Shown here: in pieces, positions 17,241-28,400 of the stretch
Numbering within the stretch: position 1 is the stretch's first letter
Layout: every line of letters begins with the position of its first letter
From: Elusimicrobiota bacterium
GTDB lineage: Bacteria; Elusimicrobiota; Elusimicrobia; UBA1565; UBA9628
Direction: 5' to 3'
Assembly (NCBI GenBank): GCA_030696455.1
Contig: JAUYSH010000129.1
Coordinates: 1 to 45,283 of the forward strand
DNA: 45,283 nt
The notes under the pieces: generated by a model
What the model was told of the DNA's origin: nothing
The model's database searches: none
Seen by the model: only the letters and a program-made list of their open reading frames with translations
Program-made: the position numbers and the translations under genes

Positions 17241-17294
17241 GTTTATCTCAAGATAAACATGCGGCGTTGACGCCTCCGAATTTGGTTGAATAAT
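17241..17294 (+). promoter_or_regulatory. Operator-like palindrome and promoter of the catabolic operon
   Basis: GTTTATCT-CA-AGATAAAC (17241-17258) is a perfect dyad eight bases upstream of -35 TTGACG (17267-17272). AATAAT at 17289-17294 is the -10 (16-base spacer). A ribosome site GGAGG at 17316-17320 precedes ATG 17325. The palindrome is a likely operator for a TetR- or GntR-type regulator not encoded in this window. Confidence 0.55.
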
Positions 17295-17324
17295 CGCCAG
17301 CCGTCGACGAGACCCGGAGGACGA

Positions 17325-18830
17325 ATGAGCACCGCCACGATGCCCGAAGTTCACCCCCTTCTCAAGGATTTCCTGTCGCGCAAGGTCCACAAGCTCCTGA
17401 TCGACGGCAAGCCCGCGGACGCCGCCTCCGGCAAGACCTTCGCCGTCGTGAACCCGGCCACCGGCGAGCCGCTCGGCGCCGTCGCCGAGGCGGACTCGGC
17501 CGACGTCGACCGGGCGGTATCCTCCGCGCGCGCGGCCCTCGAGGGTCCGTGGTCGAAGCTGTCGCCCGCCGAGCGCGAGAAGGTGCTCCACAAGGCCGCC
17601 GACCTGCTCGAGGCCCGCGCCGAGGCCTTCGCCCAGCTCGAGAGCCTCGACAACGGCAAGCCGATCCGCGAGGCCAAGAACGGCGACCTGCCCCTGGCCG
17701 TCGGCCTCCTGCGCTACTTCGGCGGCTGGCCCACCAAGATCCACGGCGAGACCACGCCCGTCTCGGTGCCGTATTTCCCGGGCGCCAAGTTCCTTCATTA
17801 CACGGTGCGGGAGCCCGTGGGGGTGGTGGGCGCCATCATTCCGTGGAACTTCCCTCTTCTGATGGCGGTCGAGCGTCTCGCCCCGGCCCTGGCATGCGGG
17901 AACGCGATCGTCCTTAAGCCCGCCGAGCAGACGCCGCTCAGCGCTCTTTGGCTGGGAGAACTTCTTCTCGAGGCGGGCGTGCCTCCGGGCGTCGTGAACG
18001 TGGTGCCGGGCTTCGGACCCACGGCCGGGGCGGCGATCGCCCGGCACTTGCAGATCGACAAAGTGACCTTCACCGGCTCCACCGAGGTCGGCCGCGAGGT
18101 CGTCAAGGCCTCCGCGGGAAACATGAAGCGCATCTCGATGGAGCTGGGCGGCAAGTCCCCGAACATCGTGTTCGCCGACGCCGACCTCGACGCCGCCGCG
18201 AAGGGCATCTTCATGGGCATCTTCTACAACCAGGGGCAGTGCTGCTCCGCCGGCTCGCGGGTCTTCATCGAAAGACCGGCCTACGAGAAGATGGTCGCGG
18301 CGCTCGCCGAGCGGGCGAAGACGGTCAAACAAGGAAACCCTTTGGATCCCAAGACTCACATGGGTCCGTTGGTTTCCAAGGAGCAGCGCGATCGCGTGCT
18401 CTCCTATATCGAGTCCGGTAAAAAAGAAGGCGCCCAATTGCTTTCCGGCGGCGCAGCCGCCGAAGGTCCGGGGTTTTTCGTCCAGCCGACGGTGTTCGGC
18501 GGCGTGAAGGACGAGATGAAGATCTCCCGCGAGGAGATCTTCGGGCCCGTGGTCGCCGTCATGCCGTTCGATTCCCTCGACGAGGTCATGGCCCGCGCGA
18601 ACTCCAGCGACTACGGCCTCGTGGCCGCCGTCTGGACCAAGGACGTCAAGAAGGCCCATCAGGCCGCCGCCAAGCTCAAGGCCGGCACGGTCTGGATCAA
18701 CTGCTACCACTTCGTGGACGCGGCGGCGCCGTGGGGCGGCGTCAAGCAGTCGGGGTACGGAAGAGAGAAGGGGCAATACGCGTTGGAAAACTACACCTCC
18801 CTCAAATCGGTGTGGGTGGATCTCAATTGA
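17325..18830 (+). CDS. NAD(P)-dependent aldehyde dehydrogenase (ALDH1/2-like)
   Basis: 501 residues from ATG 17325, four bases after GGAGG; a frame extension to 17286 is not needed. Catalytic Cys in NQGQCCSAGSRVF (about 306), Glu in MELGGKSPN (about 272), Asn in IPWNFPLL and cofactor motif FTGSTEVGR are present. The sequence is of the mammalian ALDH1/2, betaine- and phenylacetaldehyde-dehydrogenase type. It oxidises an aldehyde to the acid. As first gene of an operon with two crotonases and a PaaA-like protein, phenylacetaldehyde or another aryl/alkyl aldehyde is a reasonable guess. Its stop overlaps the next start (TGATG). Confidence 0.93.
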   Translation: MSTATMPEVHPLLKDFLSRKVHKLLIDGKPADAASGKTFAVVNPATGEPLGAVAEADSADVDRAVSSARAALEGPWSKLSPAEREKVLHKAADLLEARAEAFAQLESLDNGKPIREAKNGDLPLAVGLLRYFGGWPTKIHGETTPVSVPYFPGAKFLHYTVREPVGVVGAIIPWNFPLLMAVERLAPALACGNAIVLKPAEQTPLSALWLGELLLEAGVPPGVVNVVPGFGPTAGAAIARHLQIDKVTFTGSTEVGREVVKASAGNMKRISMELGGKSPNIVFADADLDAAAKGIFMGIFYNQGQCCSAGSRVFIERPAYEKMVAALAERAKTVKQGNPLDPKTHMGPLVSKEQRDRVLSYIESGKKEGAQLLSGGAAAEGPGFFVQPTVFGGVKDEMKISREEIFGPVVAVMPFDSLDEVMARANSSDYGLVAAVWTKDVKKAHQAAAKLKAGTVWINCYHFVDAAAPWGGVKQSGYGREKGQYALENYTSLKSVWVDLN

Positions 18831-19618
18831 TGACGAGCATCGCTGCCGAGGTGATCGTCGAGACCGAAGGCGCGGTTGGGATCGTCACGCTCAATCGTCC
18901 GTCGGCCTTGAACGCGTTGTCGATCGCCGTGATGGACGCCGTGGTGGAGGCCTTGGGCGGGTTTGATCGAGATCCAGGCATCCACGCCATGGTCTTGGCC
19001 GGTTTGCCCAAAGCGTTCGCCGCCGGCGCCGATATCGGCGAAATGAAAAACATCACCGGCGGCGGAGCCGCCGAACAGCAGCTGGCGAATCACCTGTCGC
19101 ATTGGGACAAGATCGGGAACCTGAAAAAGCCGGTCATCGCCGCCGTTTCCGGATTCGCCTTGGGCGGCGGGTGCGAGTTGGCGATGGCGTGCGACATGAT
19201 CGTCGCGTCCGAAACCGCCGTTTTCGGCCAGCCGGAGGTATTAATCGGCGTGATGCCCGGAGCGGGTGGAACGCAGAGGTTGACCAAAGCCGTGGGCAAG
19301 CAGCTGTCCATGGAGATGAACCTCACGGGCCGAAAACTGGCGGCGCGCGAGGCCCTGTCATTTGGTTTGGTGAATCGAGTCGTGCCCGTCGAATCATTTT
19401 TAAGCGAAGCCAAAAAATTGGCGCATACGATCGCGGCCCAACCGCCGCTCGCCGTGCAGGCCGCGAAAGCTTCAGTCCGCGAAGCGTTGGATTCGAAGTT
19501 GTCGGAAGGTCTTTCATTCGAGCGCCAGTCTTTTTTTCGTTTATTCGATTCTCAGGACCAGAAAGAGGGCATGACCGCCTTTTTCGAAAAACGGAAGCCC
19601 GTTTGGAACGGCAAATAG
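18830..19618 (+). CDS. Enoyl-CoA hydratase (ECHS1/PaaF-like)
   Basis: 262 residues; ATG 18830 shares a base with the previous stop. Crotonase fold with oxyanion-hole motifs KAFAAGADI and GFALGGGCELAMACD. Both catalytic glutamates of true hydratases are kept: Glu in GGCELA (about 122) and in FGQPEVLIGVMPGAGGTQRL (about 142). It should hydrate trans-2-enoyl-CoA to 3-hydroxyacyl-CoA. Codons here are visibly richer in A/T than in neighbouring genes (AAAAAATTGG, TTTTTAAGC), perhaps a sign of separate origin. Followed after one base by the second crotonase. Confidence 0.92.
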   Translation: MTSIAAEVIVETEGAVGIVTLNRPSALNALSIAVMDAVVEALGGFDRDPGIHAMVLAGLPKAFAAGADIGEMKNITGGGAAEQQLANHLSHWDKIGNLKKPVIAAVSGFALGGGCELAMACDMIVASETAVFGQPEVLIGVMPGAGGTQRLTKAVGKQLSMEMNLTGRKLAAREALSFGLVNRVVPVESFLSEAKKLAHTIAAQPPLAVQAAKASVREALDSKLSEGLSFERQSFFRLFDSQDQKEGMTAFFEKRKPVWNGK

Positions 19619-19619
19619 A

Positions 19620-20405
19620 ATGGATCTCCTGAACGAGCAGAAAGACGGAGTGCTCACGCTCACGCTGAATCGCCCCGACGTCCTCAACGCGTTGACCTTG
19701 GACATGATGAAGGGCATCCGTGAAGCCCTGAAAAAAGCGTCCTCGGACAAAGCCGTCAAGGCCGTCATTCTAACCGCGAGCGGCCGCGCCTTCTGCGCCG
19801 GCGCCGACCTCGGCGATCTGCAGCGCCGCCAAAAGGCCTCGGCGTTTTCCCTCGGTGACGAGCTCCGCGACCATTTCAACCCCCTCGTCGCCCAGATCCG
19901 TCGTCTCGAGAAGCCGGTGATCGGCGCCATCAACGGCCTCGCGGCCGGCGCCGGCGCCAGCATAATCCTCTCGACGGATCTGAAGGTGTGCGCCGAGAAT
20001 GCGACCTTCCTCAACGCCTTCGTCCGCGTCGGCCTCGTCCCCGACTCCGGCATGACCTACTCCCTGCCCCGCTTCCTCGGCTATTCGAAGGCGCTCGAGC
20101 ACATGTGGCTCGCCAAGCCCGTCACCGCGGAGCAGGCGCTCGCCTGCGGCCTGGTCAACAAGGTCGTCCCCGCCGAGTCCGTCCTCGTCGAGGCGCAGAG
20201 GATCGCCGCCGAGCTCGTGAAGATGCCGCCGCTCGCCTTGGCCTTGACGAAGCGCGCCGTCAACCGCTCGTTGGAGGCCCCGTCGCTCGACGAGCAGATG
20301 GAATACGAAGCCCAGCTTCAAGAAATATTGGGAAAGACGAAAGATCATGCCGAAGGCGTCGGCGCCTTCCTCGAGAAGCGCCCCGCTCAGTTCAAAGGAG
20401 AATGA
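19620..20405 (+). CDS. Crotonase-family isomerase (PaaG-like)
   Basis: 261 residues. Crotonase motifs GRAFCAGADLGDL and NGLAAGAGASIILSTDL are present, but the first hydratase glutamate is replaced (AGASII), and the second region reads GLVPDSGMTYSLPRFLG. The Asp in VPDSG matches the catalytic Asp of PaaG, the ring-1,2-epoxyphenylacetyl-CoA isomerase, so an isomerase rather than a hydratase is likely. The C-terminus (FLEKRPAQFKGE) is the family's usual ending. AAAGGAG for the next gene sits in its last codons. Confidence 0.86.
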   Translation: MDLLNEQKDGVLTLTLNRPDVLNALTLDMMKGIREALKKASSDKAVKAVILTASGRAFCAGADLGDLQRRQKASAFSLGDELRDHFNPLVAQIRRLEKPVIGAINGLAAGAGASIILSTDLKVCAENATFLNAFVRVGLVPDSGMTYSLPRFLGYSKALEHMWLAKPVTAEQALACGLVNKVVPAESVLVEAQRIAAELVKMPPLALALTKRAVNRSLEAPSLDEQMEYEAQLQEILGKTKDHAEGVGAFLEKRPAQFKGE

Positions 20406-20407
20406 CC

Positions 20408-21235
20408 ATGACCCTCGAACCGAACCGCATCCGCGAAGAGAAGCTCCTCGCGAAAATCGCCAAAGGCCAGAAGATCACCGAGCTCTCCGAGATGAGCGAC
20501 GAGTACCGCGAGCACCTCACGAATCTGATGTCGATGCAGGCCGACTCCGAGCTGGCCGGCGCGTTCGGCTACGTGCCGTGGATCCAGAAGTCCCCCGACA
20601 TCAAGGAGACCTTGCAGGTCGCGCAGATCGTCAAGGACGAGGTCCGCCACGCGCGGGTGATGTACCGCCTCCTCGAGGGCATGGGCGTCGACGTCGACGA
20701 GTACTACAAGACCCACAACTTCAACCTCCGGGTCGACGCCGACGACATCGGAACCCTCCGGGCCGCGGACGATAAGCGCGTCAACATCTTCTACTACCCC
20801 ATCGACACCTGGTACGACTTCATCATGTTCAATTTCTGCATGGACCGCGGCGCGGGCCATCAGCTCGAGGACTCCCTCGACTGCTCCTACAAGCCTTGGT
20901 GCGACGGGATGGAGGGCATCTTCAAGGAAGAGGAGATGCACATGGCGCACGGCGACCAATGGGCCAAGAAGCTCTCCGAGGACCCGAAGACGCACGACGA
21001 CCTGCAGGCGGCGTTCGACAAATGGTATCCGCGGACGATGAATATCTTCGGACGCGCGAATTCTCCTAAAAACGTGATTTATCGCAAGTACGGCCTGAAG
21101 AAGCGCGACAACGACGAGGTCCGCCAGGCCTTCGCCGCCGACATCAAGGACAAGGCCGCGAAATTCGGCCTCAAGGTCCCCGCCTGGACGCCGGTGGCGG
21201 CGAAGATGTCCGAAGAGCCTTTCATCCCCGGATGA
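20408..21235 (+). CDS. PaaA-like di-iron acyl-CoA oxygenase subunit
   Basis: 275 residues from ATG 20408, which has AAAGGAG seven bases upstream; ATG 20402 is too close to that site. Ferritin-like four-helix bundle of the PaaA/PaaC family. Helix 1 ADSELAGAFGY gives Glu48; KDEVRHARVMYRLLEGMG gives Glu78 and His81; KEEEMHMAHG gives Glu175 and His178. These match the di-iron ligands of catalytic PaaA (SEIVG, DEAGH, EESFH in E. coli). PaaA epoxidises phenylacetyl-CoA but normally needs PaaC as scaffold and PaaE as reductase; none of PaaB, C, D, E or K is here. It may act on another CoA ester with partners encoded elsewhere. Confidence 0.85.
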   Translation: MTLEPNRIREEKLLAKIAKGQKITELSEMSDEYREHLTNLMSMQADSELAGAFGYVPWIQKSPDIKETLQVAQIVKDEVRHARVMYRLLEGMGVDVDEYYKTHNFNLRVDADDIGTLRAADDKRVNIFYYPIDTWYDFIMFNFCMDRGAGHQLEDSLDCSYKPWCDGMEGIFKEEEMHMAHGDQWAKKLSEDPKTHDDLQAAFDKWYPRTMNIFGRANSPKNVIYRKYGLKKRDNDEVRQAFAADIKDKAAKFGLKVPAWTPVAAKMSEEPFIPG

Positions 21236-21909: not shown

Positions 21910-23162
21910 ACGCGGCCGCCGCCGAGCGCCGAGCCTCCTGGTCGATCTTCGTGACTGCCTTGGCCGTGCGCGCCGTCTTCGCATGGCGGAAGGGACTTCC
22001 TCCCCTCGTCGCCGACGCCGCGGAATACCGGTTTTATGCCGCTAGCCTCGTCGAGACGGGGAGCTACCTCGGGCCTCAAGGCGAATTTGCGGCCCGCATG
22101 CCGGGCTACCCCTTGTTTCTGGCCGCCGTCCGCGCCCTATTCGGTGATTCATTGATCGCCGTGATCGCGGCGCAGTGCCTGCTCGGGGCTGCGACCTGCC
22201 TGCTTCTGTACAAGCTGGCCAAGCGCATATTACCCGGGCCGTGGCCGCTGGCCGGCGGAGTGCTGAGCGCCGTCTACTTCGGACTCGTCGAGCCTGTCTC
22301 CTTGGTGCTCAGCGAAAGCCTCTACAGCTTCTTTCTCGTGCTGTCCGCGTGGGCGCTTTTCCATCCGCTTTGGCGTCCCGCCGTCCGCGCCGCCGCGTTC
22401 GGCGTCCTGGCCGGTTTCCTCTATCTCGTCCGCCCCGAGCCCTTGCCCTACATACTGGCCACGATCGCGCTCATGCCGATTCTATGGCCGAATTTCGGCC
22501 GCAAGGAGATCGCCGCGGCGCTGGCGGGCCTGGCGTTGGTCACCGGCGTCTGGATCGGCCGCAATTTCGCCCACTTCGACCGCTTCTTGCCCGCCAGCAC
22601 GGCGGGCAAGAGCGTCGTCTACATCTCGCTCTACCTTCCGGCCGCCCGCCACGGCCTGGCGCCCGAGGGCCGATGGTTCGCTCCCGCAGGCATGGGCGAA
22701 CTGGAAAGCGAGGAACAGTTCGCGGAGCGTTTCAGGGAGTTGGCGGCGCGCATGACCTGGCGCCAGCTCGCGAGCGCTTACCTGTTCAATTTCGCGAGCA
22801 TCCTTTATCCTTTCCTGCCGGGGTACGACTGGACCTACATGCTCGTGCTGCCGTTCGCTCTGATCGGGCTTGCCTCCGCGGTCAAACACAAGGAGCTGAG
22901 GCCTGCGGCGATGTCGGTCGTATTTTCCGTGACGATCTTCACCTTTTGCGGCGGTTGGGCCTCGCGTTACCGCCAGGGCGTGGCGCCGTTCATCATACTC
23001 CTGGGCGCCGCCGGGATGATGGCCGTCGATAAATGGGCGGGGCGCGCGCGATTTCTGGCGGGAGCCTCGGCTTGGCTCGCCTTCAATCTGCTAATCTGGG
23101 CGGGTCAGGCGCAGGTTCGCCAGTTGGTGCTATGGCTCAGAGCCCTGGCATGGGGACATTGA
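21906..23162 (+). CDS. GT-C glycosyltransferase (GT39/ArnT-like)
   Basis: 418 residues from ATG 21906. The family motif DAAEYRFYAASLVETGSY (Asp-Glu after the first helix) and RMPGYPLFLAAV are those of dolichyl- or undecaprenyl-phosphate sugar-dependent glycosyltransferases. About ten membrane helices follow. A periplasmic loop with HGLAPEGRWFAPAGM lies around residues 245-275. It would transfer a sugar from a polyprenyl carrier to a lipid or protein on the outer face of the inner membrane. Ends two bases before the methyltransferase. Confidence 0.82.
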   Translation: MNAAAAERRASWSIFVTALAVRAVFAWRKGLPPLVADAAEYRFYAASLVETGSYLGPQGEFAARMPGYPLFLAAVRALFGDSLIAVIAAQCLLGAATCLLLYKLAKRILPGPWPLAGGVLSAVYFGLVEPVSLVLSESLYSFFLVLSAWALFHPLWRPAVRAAAFGVLAGFLYLVRPEPLPYILATIALMPILWPNFGRKEIAAALAGLALVTGVWIGRNFAHFDRFLPASTAGKSVVYISLYLPAARHGLAPEGRWFAPAGMGELESEEQFAERFRELAARMTWRQLASAYLFNFASILYPFLPGYDWTYMLVLPFALIGLASAVKHKELRPAAMSVVFSVTIFTFCGGWASRYRQGVAPFIILLGAAGMMAVDKWAGRARFLAGASAWLAFNLLIWAGQAQVRQLVLWLRALAWGH

Positions 23163-23164
23163 AA

Positions 23165-23941
23165 ATGACGAGCCAAACGAGTCAGCGCGAATGGAATTAC
23201 CTGTGGACCACGCTCGAGGACAAAGACGAGTGGCTTTTCCGCGCCTGGATACATCCCAACACTCCCGAGAGCTTCGCGGGCAAGACCGTTCTGGATGCGG
23301 GCTGCGGGCCGGGCCATCACGCGCGCCTCTCGGCCGGGTACGCGAAGCGAGTCGTCGGCGTGGACCTCAACACCGCCCCGATCGCGAAGGAGAAGCTCAA
23401 GGACCTACCGAACGTGGAGGTCGTCGCGGGAGACATCGCCAAGTGGGACAGCGGGGAGCGCTTCGACGTGGTGTACTCCGTCGGGGTCGTTCACCACACC
23501 CAGAACCCTGACGCCACGTCGGCGCACCTCAAGACCTTGGTCAAGCCGGGAGGACGGATCATCTTCTGGCTCTATTCCCGGGAAGGCAACGGCTTCGTGT
23601 ACTGGGTCCTGGAGCCGCTGAAGAAATATTTCCTCGATTATCTCCCGCGCGGCGTGGTCATGTTGCTGAGCCACATTCTGACGGTGATCGGGTCCGTTCT
23701 CATGCATACCTTTTACCGCCTGCCGCTGCCTGAGAGCTTCCCTTACTACACCTACTGCAAGAATCTGCGAGGGTCGACGTATCAAAGAAGATTGTTGAAC
23801 GTCTTCGACAAGCTCAACGCCCCGACGACCCATTTGATCACCGAGGCGCAGGCCCGCTCTTGGGTGGCGGGCTGGAAGGCAACGCACGTGGATTTCTACG
23901 TGGGGACTTCGTGGCGTGTCTCCGGGACCAAGCCGGAATGA
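23165..23941 (+). CDS. SAM-dependent class I methyltransferase
   Basis: 258 residues from ATG 23165; ATG 23150 in frame would overlap the previous gene. SAM-binding motif I VLDAGCGPGHHARL (about residue 42), acidic end of strand 2 VVGVDLN, motif with VVYSVGVVHHTQNP and KPGGRIIFWLYSREGN. The C-terminal half, with a long hydrophobic stretch (VVMLLSHILTVIGSVLMHTF), may sit at the membrane or form a substrate lid. Substrate unknown; a glycan or lipid made with the neighbouring glycosyltransferase is possible. Its stop overlaps the caspase start (ATGA). Confidence 0.83.
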   Translation: MTSQTSQREWNYLWTTLEDKDEWLFRAWIHPNTPESFAGKTVLDAGCGPGHHARLSAGYAKRVVGVDLNTAPIAKEKLKDLPNVEVVAGDIAKWDSGERFDVVYSVGVVHHTQNPDATSAHLKTLVKPGGRIIFWLYSREGNGFVYWVLEPLKKYFLDYLPRGVVMLLSHILTVIGSVLMHTFYRLPLPESFPYYTYCKNLRGSTYQRRLLNVFDKLNAPTTHLITEAQARSWVAGWKATHVDFYVGTSWRVSGTKPE

Positions 23942-25752
23942 GGCTTTTGGCGGCGCTGCCGCTGCTCCTCATTCTCTCCGGCTGCCGGAACCCGAAGCCC
24001 CTGCGAATCGACGCCGCGCCGGCGCTCTCCGAGGCGCCCGCGCAGGCGCCCTCAGACGGCTGGCGAGCCATCGCGCGTCTCCCAAGGCCCCTCGCGACGA
24101 AAGCGATCGTCGCGCTCGACGGTGTGCTTTATTTCTTCTCCGGCGCATATGCCGAGGGTCCCACCAACGATGTGACGGCTTATGACCTGTCTTCGCGCCG
24201 TTGGACCGTCAGGGCGCCCATGCCTCAATCGCACTACAATCAGGACGCGGTCGCGCTCGGCGGCAAGATCTATATGGCCGGGGGCTGCGTCCGCTCCGAC
24301 TGCTCCCTTCCCAGCGGAGCCGCTTATTCCTATGACCCCAAGGAGGATTTTTGGACCGTACTTCCTGCTTTGCCCGAAGGGATCTTCGACGGCTCGAGCG
24401 CGGCGATCGACGGACGCTTCGTCGTCATCGGTGGAGTCGCGAATCGAGAGACGTCGCGGCGCGTTTATGCGTATAACCCGGGGCGGCGCACCTGGGCGCG
24501 CTTGGCCGACCTTCCGTCTCCTCGCAGTCACGCGGGCGGCGCGATGTTCGGCGGACTCTATTACTTGACCGGCGGCTGCAAGGGCGGGCAACCCGGCCGG
24601 TATTGCGACCAGATCGCCGAAGATGTTTTCATATACGACCCTAAGAAGAACGCCTGGTCTTCCGGACCGCCTCTGCCGACGGCTATTCACGGTCACGGCG
24701 CCGCCGTCGACGGCGGCAGGCTCATCATCGCCGGCGGCGTTTGCGGGCCTTCTCGCGTCGCGGATTGCGGCGCGTTCATGCTCAAGAGCCGCGGCCACGG
24801 TTGGGCGCCTATCTCGGACATTCTTCGAACGCGCTTCGGCGCCCGGCTGTTCGCGTTGCCGCGCGGCGTCGGGCTGTTCGGGCCTAACTATCGGAACAAT
24901 GCGGATGATCTCGTGGAAGCCTTGGGTTACCCGGGGCCCTATGTTGATCCCGGCCAGCCGTCGATCCCCGTTCCGGCGCCTCCTTCTCGAATCCAGGCTC
25001 CGGTTTCTGATCCCGAACATCCGAGAAATCTGCCTCTCGCCGCCGCGCCGAACGCGCGGGCCCACGCCGTCGTCATAGGAGTCGAGCGATACCGCGAGAA
25101 CCTTCCCCGGGCCGATTTCGCCGCGAGCGACGCGAAACTAGCGGCCGAGTACTTTCGGCGGGTGCTGGGAGTCTCCGAAGAGAATTTGGCGTTGCTCCGG
25201 GATGAGCGCGCGACCAAGAGCGATTTCGAAAAGTATTTCGAGCGGTGGCTGCCCAATCGCGTGGAAAGCGGCGACGAGGTGTTCGTTTATTTCTCAGGCC
25301 ACGGCGCGCCGAATCCTCGCTCGGGAGAGTCCTATCTCGTGCCTTACGACGCCGATCCGACCTACATCGAGCAGACAGGCTATCCTCTCAGTAGAGTCTA
25401 CGAGCTTCTGAGCAAGCTCCCGGCCAAGCGTGTCCTGCTGGTCTTGGATTCCTGCTTTTCCGGCGGCGGGGGCCGCTCCGTGCTCGCCAAAGGCGCGCGG
25501 CCTTTGGTCAGCGTCGTTCCAAGCAAGGTTCCGTCCGGGCTCACTGTGATTTCAGCATCCGCCGGAGACCAGATCAGCAACAGTTACCGGGATAAGCAAC
25601 AAGGGCTTTTCACGTATTACTTTCTCAAAGGCCTCAAGGAAAAGGGCGGAGACTTGCGAGCGGTTTTCGATTACCTGAAACCGCGGGTCTCCCGCGTGGC
25701 GCGGCGCGAGTACAACTCCGATCAGGTCCCCCAGTGGAGCAAGGGCAAGTGA
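23938..25752 (+). CDS. Kelch-repeat / caspase-like (C14) lipoprotein
   Basis: 604 residues. Signal peptide with lipobox LILSGC (Cys 16). Residues about 45-330 hold kelch repeats (IYMAGG, RFVVIGGVAN, LYYLTGG, RLIIAGG, each followed by a YNPGRRTW- or YDPKKNAW-type strand), a beta-propeller. A Pro-rich linker (about 345-370) leads to a caspase p20-like domain: HAVVIGVERYRENLP, His about 455 in VYFSGHGAPNP, Cys about 505 in LLVLDSCFSGGGG. The His-Cys dyad is intact, so it is a likely active orthocaspase, which in bacteria usually cut after Arg or Lys. Lipidation puts it in the envelope. It is the last gene of the eight-gene chain that begins with the aldehyde dehydrogenase. Confidence 0.93.
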   Translation: MRLLAALPLLLILSGCRNPKPLRIDAAPALSEAPAQAPSDGWRAIARLPRPLATKAIVALDGVLYFFSGAYAEGPTNDVTAYDLSSRRWTVRAPMPQSHYNQDAVALGGKIYMAGGCVRSDCSLPSGAAYSYDPKEDFWTVLPALPEGIFDGSSAAIDGRFVVIGGVANRETSRRVYAYNPGRRTWARLADLPSPRSHAGGAMFGGLYYLTGGCKGGQPGRYCDQIAEDVFIYDPKKNAWSSGPPLPTAIHGHGAAVDGGRLIIAGGVCGPSRVADCGAFMLKSRGHGWAPISDILRTRFGARLFALPRGVGLFGPNYRNNADDLVEALGYPGPYVDPGQPSIPVPAPPSRIQAPVSDPEHPRNLPLAAAPNARAHAVVIGVERYRENLPRADFAASDAKLAAEYFRRVLGVSEENLALLRDERATKSDFEKYFERWLPNRVESGDEVFVYFSGHGAPNPRSGESYLVPYDADPTYIEQTGYPLSRVYELLSKLPAKRVLLVLDSCFSGGGGRSVLAKGARPLVSVVPSKVPSGLTVISASAGDQISNSYRDKQQGLFTYYFLKGLKEKGGDLRAVFDYLKPRVSRVARREYNSDQVPQWSKGK

Positions 25753-25804: not shown

Positions 25805-27319
25805 ATGAAAATCTGCCTCGTCCGGCCGCCGTCGATCGTCAACCCCGTCTCGTACATCGCGTCCCTGACCCCCCCCATCGGACTCGCCTACGTCGCCGCC
25901 GCCCTACGCCAGGCGGGCCACGAGGTCGTCCTGATCGACGGCATCGGCGAGAATCCGCTTCAATCCGTCCCGATCGCTCACAACCTGGTCCTTCGCGGCC
26001 TGACCTTCGACGAGATATGTGAACGCATACCCAAGGATGCGGGTCTCATCGGAGTGTCCGGCATGTTCTCCTCGGAGTGGGTGCATATCCGCGAGCTCAT
26101 CAATCTGATTTCGAAAACGCGGCCGGGCATCGCCCTGGCCGCCGGCGGAGAGCACTTCACCGCCGAGCCCGCCGTGAGCATGCGCCAATGCCCCGGCTTG
26201 TCCATCTGCGTCGTCGGCGAGGGCGAGGAGACCATCGTCGAGCTCGTCGACGCGCTGGAGAAGGGCCGCGACCTCTCGCTCGTGACGGGCCTGGCCCTGC
26301 GCGACGGGGACGGCGTCCGGACGACGGGCGCGCGCGCGCGCATCCGCTCCATCGACGAGATCGCCAAACCCGCCTGGGACCTGATCCCGCTCGAGGCCTA
26401 CTGGGATAACTCCCTCTCGTACGGCGTCAACCGCGGCAAGAGCATGCCGATGCTCGCCTCGCGCGGCTGCCCGTATCAGTGCACGTTCTGCTCGAACCCG
26501 GTGATGTGGACCACGCGCTGGATCGCGCGCTCGCCGAAGCTGGTCCTCGACGAGATCGAGGACTACAAGAATCGCTGGGGCATCCAGAACGTGGACTTCT
26601 ACGATCTGACCGCGATCGTCAAGCGCGACTGGATCCTGGAGTTCGCCAGGGGCCTCGTCGAGCGCAAGCTCGGCATCACCTGGCAGCTGCCCAGCGGCAC
26701 GCGCTCGGAGGCCATCGACGCCGAGGTCTCGAAGTGGCTGTACGCTTCGGGCTGCCGAAACATGAACTACGCTCCCGAGAGCGGCTCGGAGGACAGCCTC
26801 AAGCGCATGAAGAAGAACGTCAGCATCCCGAGGCTCACCGCTTCGCTGCGGGACGCCGTGCGGGAGGGCCTGAACGTCAAGATCAACATCATCATCGGCA
26901 TGCCCGACGACACCCACCTCGACACCTGGAAGACGCTGTGGTTCCTCGTGAAGATGTCCTGGCATGGCGCCCATGACGTCTCCCCCGGCGTCTTCTCCCC
27001 CTATCCCGGCTCGGAACTGTACGCGCGGCTGGTCAAGGAAGGCAAGATCCGCCACGACGACGACTACTTCGACAAGCTCGCCTATGTGGACATCACGGAG
27101 ACCGTCTCTTACACTGACCACATCTCGAGCGGGTGGCTGCAGTTCTACAACTGGCTCGCTTTCGCCCTCTTTTACGGTACCAACTATCTCTTCCGCCCCT
27201 CGCGTCTCTTCCGCACTTTGCGCAACCTCCGGACGGGCCGTCACGAGTCGCGCGGCGAGATGGCCCTGAGCGGCATCCTCAGCCGCCTGAAGCTCGCGCC
27301 CCCGGTCAAAAAGGTTTGA
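25805..27319 (+). CDS. B12-binding-type radical SAM protein
   Basis: 504 residues. N-terminal Rossmann-like domain of the cobalamin-binding type (MKICLVRPPS, TPPIGLAYVAAALRQAGHEV, IGVSGMFS, VVGEGEET; residues 1-170), though the DxHxxG cobalamin-loop motif is not apparent. The radical SAM core has the cluster motif CPYQCTFC (about 222-229), then PESGSE and IIIGMPDDT. C-terminal ~100 residues include a hydrophobic hairpin (FYNWLAFALFYGTNYLF) that may touch the membrane. This layout is like BchE/HpnR/methyltransferase-type enzymes acting on lipids or tetrapyrroles. The product is unknown; linkage to the glycosyltransferase-methyltransferase pair hints at a lipid. Confidence 0.85.
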   Translation: MKICLVRPPSIVNPVSYIASLTPPIGLAYVAAALRQAGHEVVLIDGIGENPLQSVPIAHNLVLRGLTFDEICERIPKDAGLIGVSGMFSSEWVHIRELINLISKTRPGIALAAGGEHFTAEPAVSMRQCPGLSICVVGEGEETIVELVDALEKGRDLSLVTGLALRDGDGVRTTGARARIRSIDEIAKPAWDLIPLEAYWDNSLSYGVNRGKSMPMLASRGCPYQCTFCSNPVMWTTRWIARSPKLVLDEIEDYKNRWGIQNVDFYDLTAIVKRDWILEFARGLVERKLGITWQLPSGTRSEAIDAEVSKWLYASGCRNMNYAPESGSEDSLKRMKKNVSIPRLTASLRDAVREGLNVKINIIIGMPDDTHLDTWKTLWFLVKMSWHGAHDVSPGVFSPYPGSELYARLVKEGKIRHDDDYFDKLAYVDITETVSYTDHISSGWLQFYNWLAFALFYGTNYLFRPSRLFRTLRNLRTGRHESRGEMALSGILSRLKLAPPVKKV

Positions 27320-27323
27320 GCCG

Positions 27324-28400
27324 ATGATCCAGCGCGTGGCGGTCGTGGGGGCGGGCACGATGGGGTTAGGCATCGCTCAGTTGTGCGCCCAATCCGGGTT
27401 TTCGGTGAAGATCCACGATGCCGTGCCCGCGGCCTTGGCGGCCCTTCCGGCCAAGCTGAGAAAATCTTTCGATACGGCCGTCCTCAAGGGAAAGCTCTCG
27501 ACGCAGCAGGCGGAGCGGGCGTTTCATTCGGTCTCGGCGGTGGCGGACATGAACGAGCTCGCGGGGGCGGATCTCGTGATCGAGGCGGCGCCCGAGGTGT
27601 TGGGGCTCAAGCAAGACCTTTTTAAACGGCTGTCCGAGATCTGCCCGGACGCGCTGCTCGCGACGAACACCTCGTCGCTGTCGGTGGCGGCGATCATGGC
27701 GCACGCCGTCTCGCCGGAACGGACCATGGGGGTGCATTTCTTCAATCCCCCCGTCGCGATGAAACTGGTCGAGATGATAAGAACCGAAAAAACCTCGCCG
27801 GAGGCGTTTCAAGCGGCTTGGGAATTCCTTTTAATGGGCCTGCGGCGGACGCCTGTCGATGTGAAAGACGTGCCGGGGTTCATCGTGAACCGCGTGATGA
27901 GGCCTTATTATGTCGCGGCACAGCGGATGGTCAACTCACGGACGAGCTGCGCCGCCGTTGACGAGGGGGCTCGGGGCATAGGCGGCGTGCCTATGGGGCC
28001 TTTCGAACTCATGGATTTGATCGGGTTGGACACGAACCTGGCCATTACGACGGCCATATACGAGGCTCTGGGAAGACCGGAGCGGTTTGCGCCGCCCGCC
28101 CTCCAGAAGAAGCTCGTCGGGGCGGGCGAGCTTGGGCGGAAAGCGGGGAAGGGGTTTTATATTTACGACGACGGCAAAAAGATCGGGGAAAACCCGTCGG
28201 CGCTGAACGACCTCGCGCGGGGAAACGGATTAACACCAAAGGATATTTGGAGCAACCTTGCGGGGGCCATCATACTGGAAGCTGAACGACTTGTTTCTGA
28301 GGGTACCGCCGGCAAATCGGACATAGACACCGCGGTCAGGCTGGCTATGAATTTCCCCAAAGGACCTTTTGAATGGCAAAAAGAAAGCACGGCGGCGTAG
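27324..28400 (+). CDS. 3-hydroxyacyl-CoA dehydrogenase (PaaH/FadB-type)
   Basis: 358 residues, four bases after the radical SAM gene. N-terminal NAD-binding VAVVGAGTMGLGIAQLCA, catalytic HFFNPP (His about 139), Ser/Asn in NTSSLSV, and VKDVPGFIVNRVMRPYY. A C-terminal second helical domain (GKGFYIYDDGKK) is followed by a partial repeat (ILEAERLVSEG, AMNFPKGPFEW), as in long-form PaaH. It oxidises 3-hydroxyacyl-CoA to 3-ketoacyl-CoA and would follow the hydratase encoded at 18830-19618. No thiolase is in the window. Confidence 0.92.
   Translation: MIQRVAVVGAGTMGLGIAQLCAQSGFSVKIHDAVPAALAALPAKLRKSFDTAVLKGKLSTQQAERAFHSVSAVADMNELAGADLVIEAAPEVLGLKQDLFKRLSEICPDALLATNTSSLSVAAIMAHAVSPERTMGVHFFNPPVAMKLVEMIRTEKTSPEAFQAAWEFLLMGLRRTPVDVKDVPGFIVNRVMRPYYVAAQRMVNSRTSCAAVDEGARGIGGVPMGPFELMDLIGLDTNLAITTAIYEALGRPERFAPPALQKKLVGAGELGRKAGKGFYIYDDGKKIGENPSALNDLARGNGLTPKDIWSNLAGAIILEAERLVSEGTAGKSDIDTAVRLAMNFPKGPFEWQKESTAA

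Follow-up and report, generated by a model that had tools for sequence, protein, structure and literature searches.

Discussion of caspases in bacteria mostly centres on cell death or defence. The closest described systems to the protein analysed here are the orthocaspases and bacterial metacaspases (MEROPS C14B, PF00656), which likewise combine a His-Cys dyad with p20 and p10 regions and are expected to hold two Asp residues in the S1 pocket. Modelling of cyanobacterial orthocaspases placed a pair of conserved Asp residues in the substrate pocket, and orthocaspases cut after positively charged residues (PMC6426788). Known orthocaspases often carry WD40, TPR or Sel1 as partner domains, whereas kelch was not mentioned in the 2012 metacaspase survey, which also listed Elusimicrobia as lacking a metacaspase (PMC3501461). 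The same survey assigned 98 of 671 prokaryotic metacaspases to a membrane class, mostly by means of an N-terminal helix that is possibly a signal peptide (PMC3501461); an exported bacterial caspase is thus less unusual than a sequence-only reading of the present DNA had claimed. A second relevant system is the SPU-type microcompartment locus, which carries DeoC, TIM, acylating aldehyde dehydrogenase, PduL, BMC and EutN genes (Axen et al. 2014, PMC4207490) and has been predicted to serve DNA catabolism (PMC4207490, PMC8156839).

Herein, a 45,283-nucleotide stretch of an Elusimicrobiota genome (contig JAUYSH010000129.1 of assembly GCA_030696455.1), referred to as the window, was analysed around a gene for a kelch-caspase (Table 1). 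Compared with orthocaspases, its product has a lipobox and a C-terminal protease placed behind a kelch propeller. The novelty lies in the modular family of putatively exported caspases to which it belongs and in the link of that family to microcompartments, for which no report was found in the literature searched. Searches joining orthocaspase with kelch retrieved no work, nor did those joining bacterial microcompartment with peptidase C14; papers on microcompartment and caspase were seemingly unrelated among the matches listed.

Table 1. Features of the kelch-caspase gene and its two neighbours, in window positions.
Feature	Position	Strand	Basis
Class I methyltransferase (ORF from 23033), context	23153..23941	+	annotation, congener comparison
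Kelch-caspase CDS, predicted lipoprotein (604 aa)	23938..25752	+	ORF, translation, Pfam kelch and C14
ATGA overlap, gene start within end of upstream methyltransferase gene	23938..23941	+	sequence
Signal peptide with lipobox LSGC, Cys16, Arg at +2	23938..23985	+	sequence pattern
Six-bladed kelch beta-propeller (residues ~49-314), three close Cys pairs in loops	24082..24879	+	Pfam, AlphaFold, Foldseek
Pro/Ala-rich linker, S-D-P-E at 357-360	24880..25029	+	alignment
Peptidase_C14 (caspase, p20+p10) domain	25030..25749	+	Pfam, AlphaFold
Asp398, aligned with metacaspase ND Asp of S1 pocket	25129..25131	+	alignment
Catalytic His455 (SGHG)	25300..25302	+	sequence, alignment
Asp504-Ser-Cys506, second S1 Asp and catalytic Cys (DSCFSG)	25447..25455	+	sequence, alignment
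Intersubunit loop SGGGGRSVLAKGARPL, residues 508-523, candidate autoprocessing loop	25459..25506	+	conservation, pLDDT
3' end CAGTGGAGCAAGGGCAAGTGA, like caspase/eutN junction CAGTGGAGGCAGGGCAAATGA	25732..25752	+	sequence comparison
B12-binding radical-SAM protein, context	25805..27319	+	annotation, congener comparison

Architecture and predicted export of the kelch-caspase

The open reading frame runs from an ATG start to a TGA stop, and the kelch plus C14 architecture of its product was confirmed far beyond chance. Kelch_1 (PF01344) matched in five stretches (E 2.5e-30; 104 bits against a cut-off of 20.1), and Peptidase_C14 (PF00656) matched residues 375-602 (E 4.9e-17; 62.8 bits against a curated cut-off of 21.4). 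The profile for the EACC1-associated caspase (NF047832) gave 77.2 bits, below its NCBIfam cut-off of 140. An AlphaFold model built with 62 related sequences contained a beta-propeller at residues ~54-314 and a caspase fold at ~370-604, with pLDDT mostly above 90. By Foldseek, the propeller resembled six-bladed designed propellers and the kelch propellers of KLHL/KEAP1 (E down to 6e-22; 1e-18 to 1e-20 for KLHL/KEAP1); unlike the latter proteins, the kelch-caspase has three close Cys pairs and a predicted export signal, and it lacks BTB and BACK domains. For the protease part, the model of a 69%-identical paralogue from the same genome matched AtMCA4, the plant type II metacaspase 4 (6w8s), better than any other chain (Z 22.5 over 210 residues, rmsd 2.5 Å). 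Identity to plant, yeast and trypanosome metacaspases is ~21%, and those enzymes are eukaryotic and not lipidated.

The catalytic residues described in the sequence-only reading proved to be a stable property of the family. His455 is present in 100% and Cys506 in ~98% of 109 aligned members, so that loss of the dyad in orthologues, which would have counted against an active enzyme, did not occur. Asp398 (100%) and Asp504 (99%) are likewise conserved; when solved metacaspases from plants, yeast and trypanosomes were aligned, these residues fell on the conserved ND Asp and on the Asp of DSC, respectively. Because both match the acidic S1 residues of metacaspases, an acidic pocket is likely, and with it, judging from these two positions, a specificity for Arg/Lys.

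Two further conserved segments may bear on activation. The loop at residues 508-523 (GGRSVLAKGARPL) is nearly invariant in the family and was modelled with low confidence in both the kelch-caspase, where pLDDT falls below 50 at residues 508-518, and the paralogue L003 from the same genome; by analogy with the p20/p10 linkers of metacaspases, it may be a self-processing site. The second segment, S-D-[VI]-D, lies just before the caspase domain, within the Pro/Ala-rich linker, in ~85% of the 109 paralogues. It is degenerate in the kelch forms, reading S-D-P-E in the kelch-caspase, and activation may therefore differ from that of the relatives. Since model confidence climbs across this segment in L003, it may cap the fold in an ordered state instead of acting as a free linker. 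A role as a caspase-like Asp cleavage site was not adopted, given its ordered appearance in the paralogue model and an S1 pocket expected to accept Arg/Lys.

The protein starts with MRLLAALPLLLILSGC, followed by R, which together provide an n-region, a hydrophobic core and, by pattern, a textbook lipobox, from which lipidation is inferred. The lipoprotein signal is widely conserved, being recognised in 78 of the 109 family members, and Asp occurs at +2 in none of them. In E. coli, lipoproteins without Asp at +2 are sorted to the outer membrane, a rule that may not hold in this phylum. By this rule, the kelch-caspase is probably anchored in the outer membrane. In addition, its eight cysteines consist of Cys16, the propeller-loop pairs 117/122, 214/223 and 269/277, and Cys506, and exactly one Cys is found in 96 of 98 family caspase domains. 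This distribution of single-Cys caspase domains and close propeller pairs suits an oxidising compartment and was counted in favour of export. Altogether, there is good support for the earlier picture of an exported and probably active caspase whose propeller serves recognition.

A modular caspase family and its operons

This genome has nine C14 matches, and most of its relatives likewise carry several C14 genes. When the full-length protein was searched, matches were obtained in 51 of 58 relatives, many of them to the protease domain alone. Across the phylum, C14 was found in 74 of 336 genomes, and the multi-copy genomes, in which up to eight copies were scored so that the highest counts mean at least eight, belong nearly all to this order. 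The N-terminal parts of the family members fall into unrelated clusters, among them ankyrin, PDZ with Sel1, WD40, kelch and unnamed lipoprotein domains. On this comparison, the kelch-caspase is part of an order-wide modular family, mostly predicted to be lipidated, in which the protease domain is constant and the N-terminal domain exchangeable.

Within this family, the kelch-C14 fusion is rare, though not unique to this genome. Six such genes were found in the order, namely the kelch-caspase, L010 (G008), L182 (G012), L184 (G009), L186 (G017) and L189 (G230), and the five further genes rule out a fusion occurring only here, one of the two outcomes that the sequence-only reading had named as a refutation. 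The last four form a separate clade far from the kelch-caspase in the tree, which argues for at least two origins of the fusion and against a single one; two or three of these four have seemingly plain signal peptides, not lipoboxes. No close donor of the propeller was found in 341 genomes of the phylum, the best match reaching 37% identity. The caspase at L182:391-3156 carries ten kelch stretches, probably amounting to two propellers.

The nearest relatives by caspase domain (60-79% identity) are found mostly in one conserved microcompartment operon with the order 5'-nucleotidase-like (ushA-like), HAD, tpi, pduL, BMC-H, acylating aldehyde dehydrogenase, BMC-T, caspase(s), eutN, eutN, deoC, Zn-ribbon, BMC-H and pilT. 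The enzyme set fits the DeoC-type (SPU), to which the relatives add putatively exported caspases between BMC-T and eutN. Of 56 genomes of the order, 46 carry EutN genes; in nine of these, a caspase directly adjoins eutN (within 2 bp), five others have one at a distance of up to 1.2 kb (14 in total), and in the remaining ones it is absent beside eutN or the locus could not be judged. In several loci, the caspase stop codon overlaps the eutN start codon as ATGA, with GGAGG in the C-terminal codons of the caspase. One or two caspases with export signals between BMC-T and the eutN genes were seen in L060 (G000:C3:20000-36000), L068, L069, L071, L072, L075, L078, L080, L081, L089, L090 and L096. 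Three microcompartment loci also contain a degenerate caspase with a lipobox between the active caspase and eutN (L017:8723-9853, L018:8708-9844 and L077:5536-6720), and neither SGHG nor DxC was found in these three.

A second caspase clade is found in pyrimidine-degradation operons of seven genomes, including the present one (contig C136). These operons encode a nitrilase-superfamily amidohydrolase, an NCS1 transporter, a dihydropyrimidinase, an aldehyde dehydrogenase and an aminotransferase. Caspases with lipoprotein signals beside the dihydropyrimidinase and NCS1 transporter genes were observed in L066, L087, L101, L107, L116, L121 and L129. The other caspase paralogues of this genome have unrelated neighbours, and the nucleic-acid theme is therefore suggestive rather than general.

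Ancestry and present site

In this genome, the BMC and EutN genes lie on contigs C3 and C77, and the kelch-caspase gene itself stands outside the microcompartment operon. Most likely, it left such an operon, as judged from three observations. In the tree, it is nested among caspases of microcompartment loci (support 97/77). Its 3' end resembles the caspase/eutN junction (Table 1), yet no eutN follows, and it looks like a relic of the caspase/eutN overlap. Furthermore, L009 (G015) and L010 (G008) group with it, at a modest FastTree support of 0.887, and are likely its orthologues: the former is 78% identical and abuts eutN, its N-terminal part being lost at a contig end, and the latter is the third of three tandem caspases and begins with the same codons as eutN. 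These start codons (ATGAAGCTCGCCCGCGTC, L010:2606-2640) are those of the eutN that follows caspase B elsewhere, hinting at how new caspases may enter the operon.

The operon position at the present site is not conserved, contrary to what the sequence-only reading had suggested, and only this genome has a caspase there. Four congeners (G001, G003, G016 and G010) have the methyltransferase and radical-SAM genes (82-90% identity) as direct neighbours, separated by 41-55 bp that hold no caspase. The earlier proposal of an operon tie to glycan and lipid enzymes was rejected on these grounds. When the site was compared with that of G003 and G016, the addition proved to comprise little more than the ORF itself, placed at the stop codon of the methyltransferase gene. 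Because the site is empty in the four congeners, the kelch-caspase gene at this position is an insertion, seen only in this genome. Its ATGA overlap likely allows translational coupling with the upstream methyltransferase gene. No second caspase gene at this site was found among the congeners compared, and there is accordingly no sign of selection on the copy in its new place. A synteny search for window genes at the caspase loci of relatives had shown nothing of note and was superseded by the congener comparison. Around the methyltransferase/radical-SAM pair, at 17286-21235 and 27324-28400, the window contains phenylacetaldehyde-dehydrogenase-like, PaaG-like (enoyl-CoA hydratase), PaaA-like and hydroxyacyl-CoA dehydrogenase genes, a cluster that looks like aromatic catabolism.

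Possible functions

Six-bladed kelch propellers are a protein-interaction fold. We consider it probable, while allowing for substantial doubt, that the protein acts as an exported, propeller-targeted cysteine protease similar in type to metacaspases and orthocaspases. Through its lipobox, the enzyme would be placed in the envelope, where the propeller would dock a protein partner or substrate and the C14 domain would then cut the docked protein after Arg/Lys, perhaps following self-processing in the loop at residues 508-523. Its ancestor, as the tree and the 3' end suggest, would have been a caspase of a DeoC-type microcompartment operon, a copy of which was later inserted between the methyltransferase and radical-SAM genes.

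Regulated proteolysis in the envelope, with the propeller sensing a ligand or partner, the caspase cutting a membrane regulator and the signal tuning the neighbouring catabolic operon, is the strongest of the alternatives and still unlikely. The presence of family members in substrate-specific operons (SPU microcompartment and pyrimidine degradation) and the varying N-terminal domains on a constant protease would agree with it, but the neighbourhood count found no recurring anti-sigma or membrane regulator beside the caspases. Nucleoprotein scavenging, in which exported Arg/Lys proteases would free extracellular DNA of basic proteins and thereby supply the DeoC microcompartment and pyrimidine pathways with nucleotides, appears distinctly improbable for the kelch-caspase. 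It draws on the two caspase clades in operons for the breakdown of DNA parts (ushA-like/deoC/tpi/pduL/pilT and NCS1 transporter/dihydropyrimidinase) and on the DNA catabolism predicted for SPU microcompartments; however, the kelch-caspase gene lies outside such operons, as do the paralogues with unrelated neighbours, and most microcompartment loci of the order have no caspase beside eutN. That the gene is a recent insertion heading for decay, with no function of its own, is very unlikely. Its restriction to one genome and its degenerate S-D-x-D motif would suit such a fate, whereas the 604-codon frame is intact, the dyad and the S1 Asp residues are kept, the gene is apparently coupled to its upstream neighbour, and the likely orthologues L009 and L010 are intact as far as sequenced. 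Least credible, with a very slim chance, is a role in cell death or phage defence of the sort played by other caspases of bacteria. A weak PADLOC 'caspase' match (E 9.1e-16) speaks for such a role, but this hit reports the C14 fold only; the protein carries an export signal, the neighbours are catabolic, and no defence gene was recognised among the annotated neighbours of the genes examined.

Beyond the propeller-targeted protease itself, a broader proposal concerns the whole family and is speculative, its chances being poor on present evidence. Envelope-anchored caspases with interchangeable recognition domains would serve as accessory proteases of nucleic-acid catabolism in one Elusimicrobiota order, built into DeoC-type microcompartment and pyrimidine operons, and copies such as the kelch form would have been transferred to other operons while gaining a different recognition domain. 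What makes the family significant is that caspases with export signals and exchangeable domains are tied to metabolism throughout an order by operon structure, including genes that overlap a microcompartment shell gene. Substrates, if found, would show that caspase-fold proteases can have housekeeping or nutritional roles and would explain why a constant protease is paired with changing recognition domains. The family also extends beyond Elusimicrobiota, as four related caspase genes lie close together in an uncultured delta-proteobacterium (L021).
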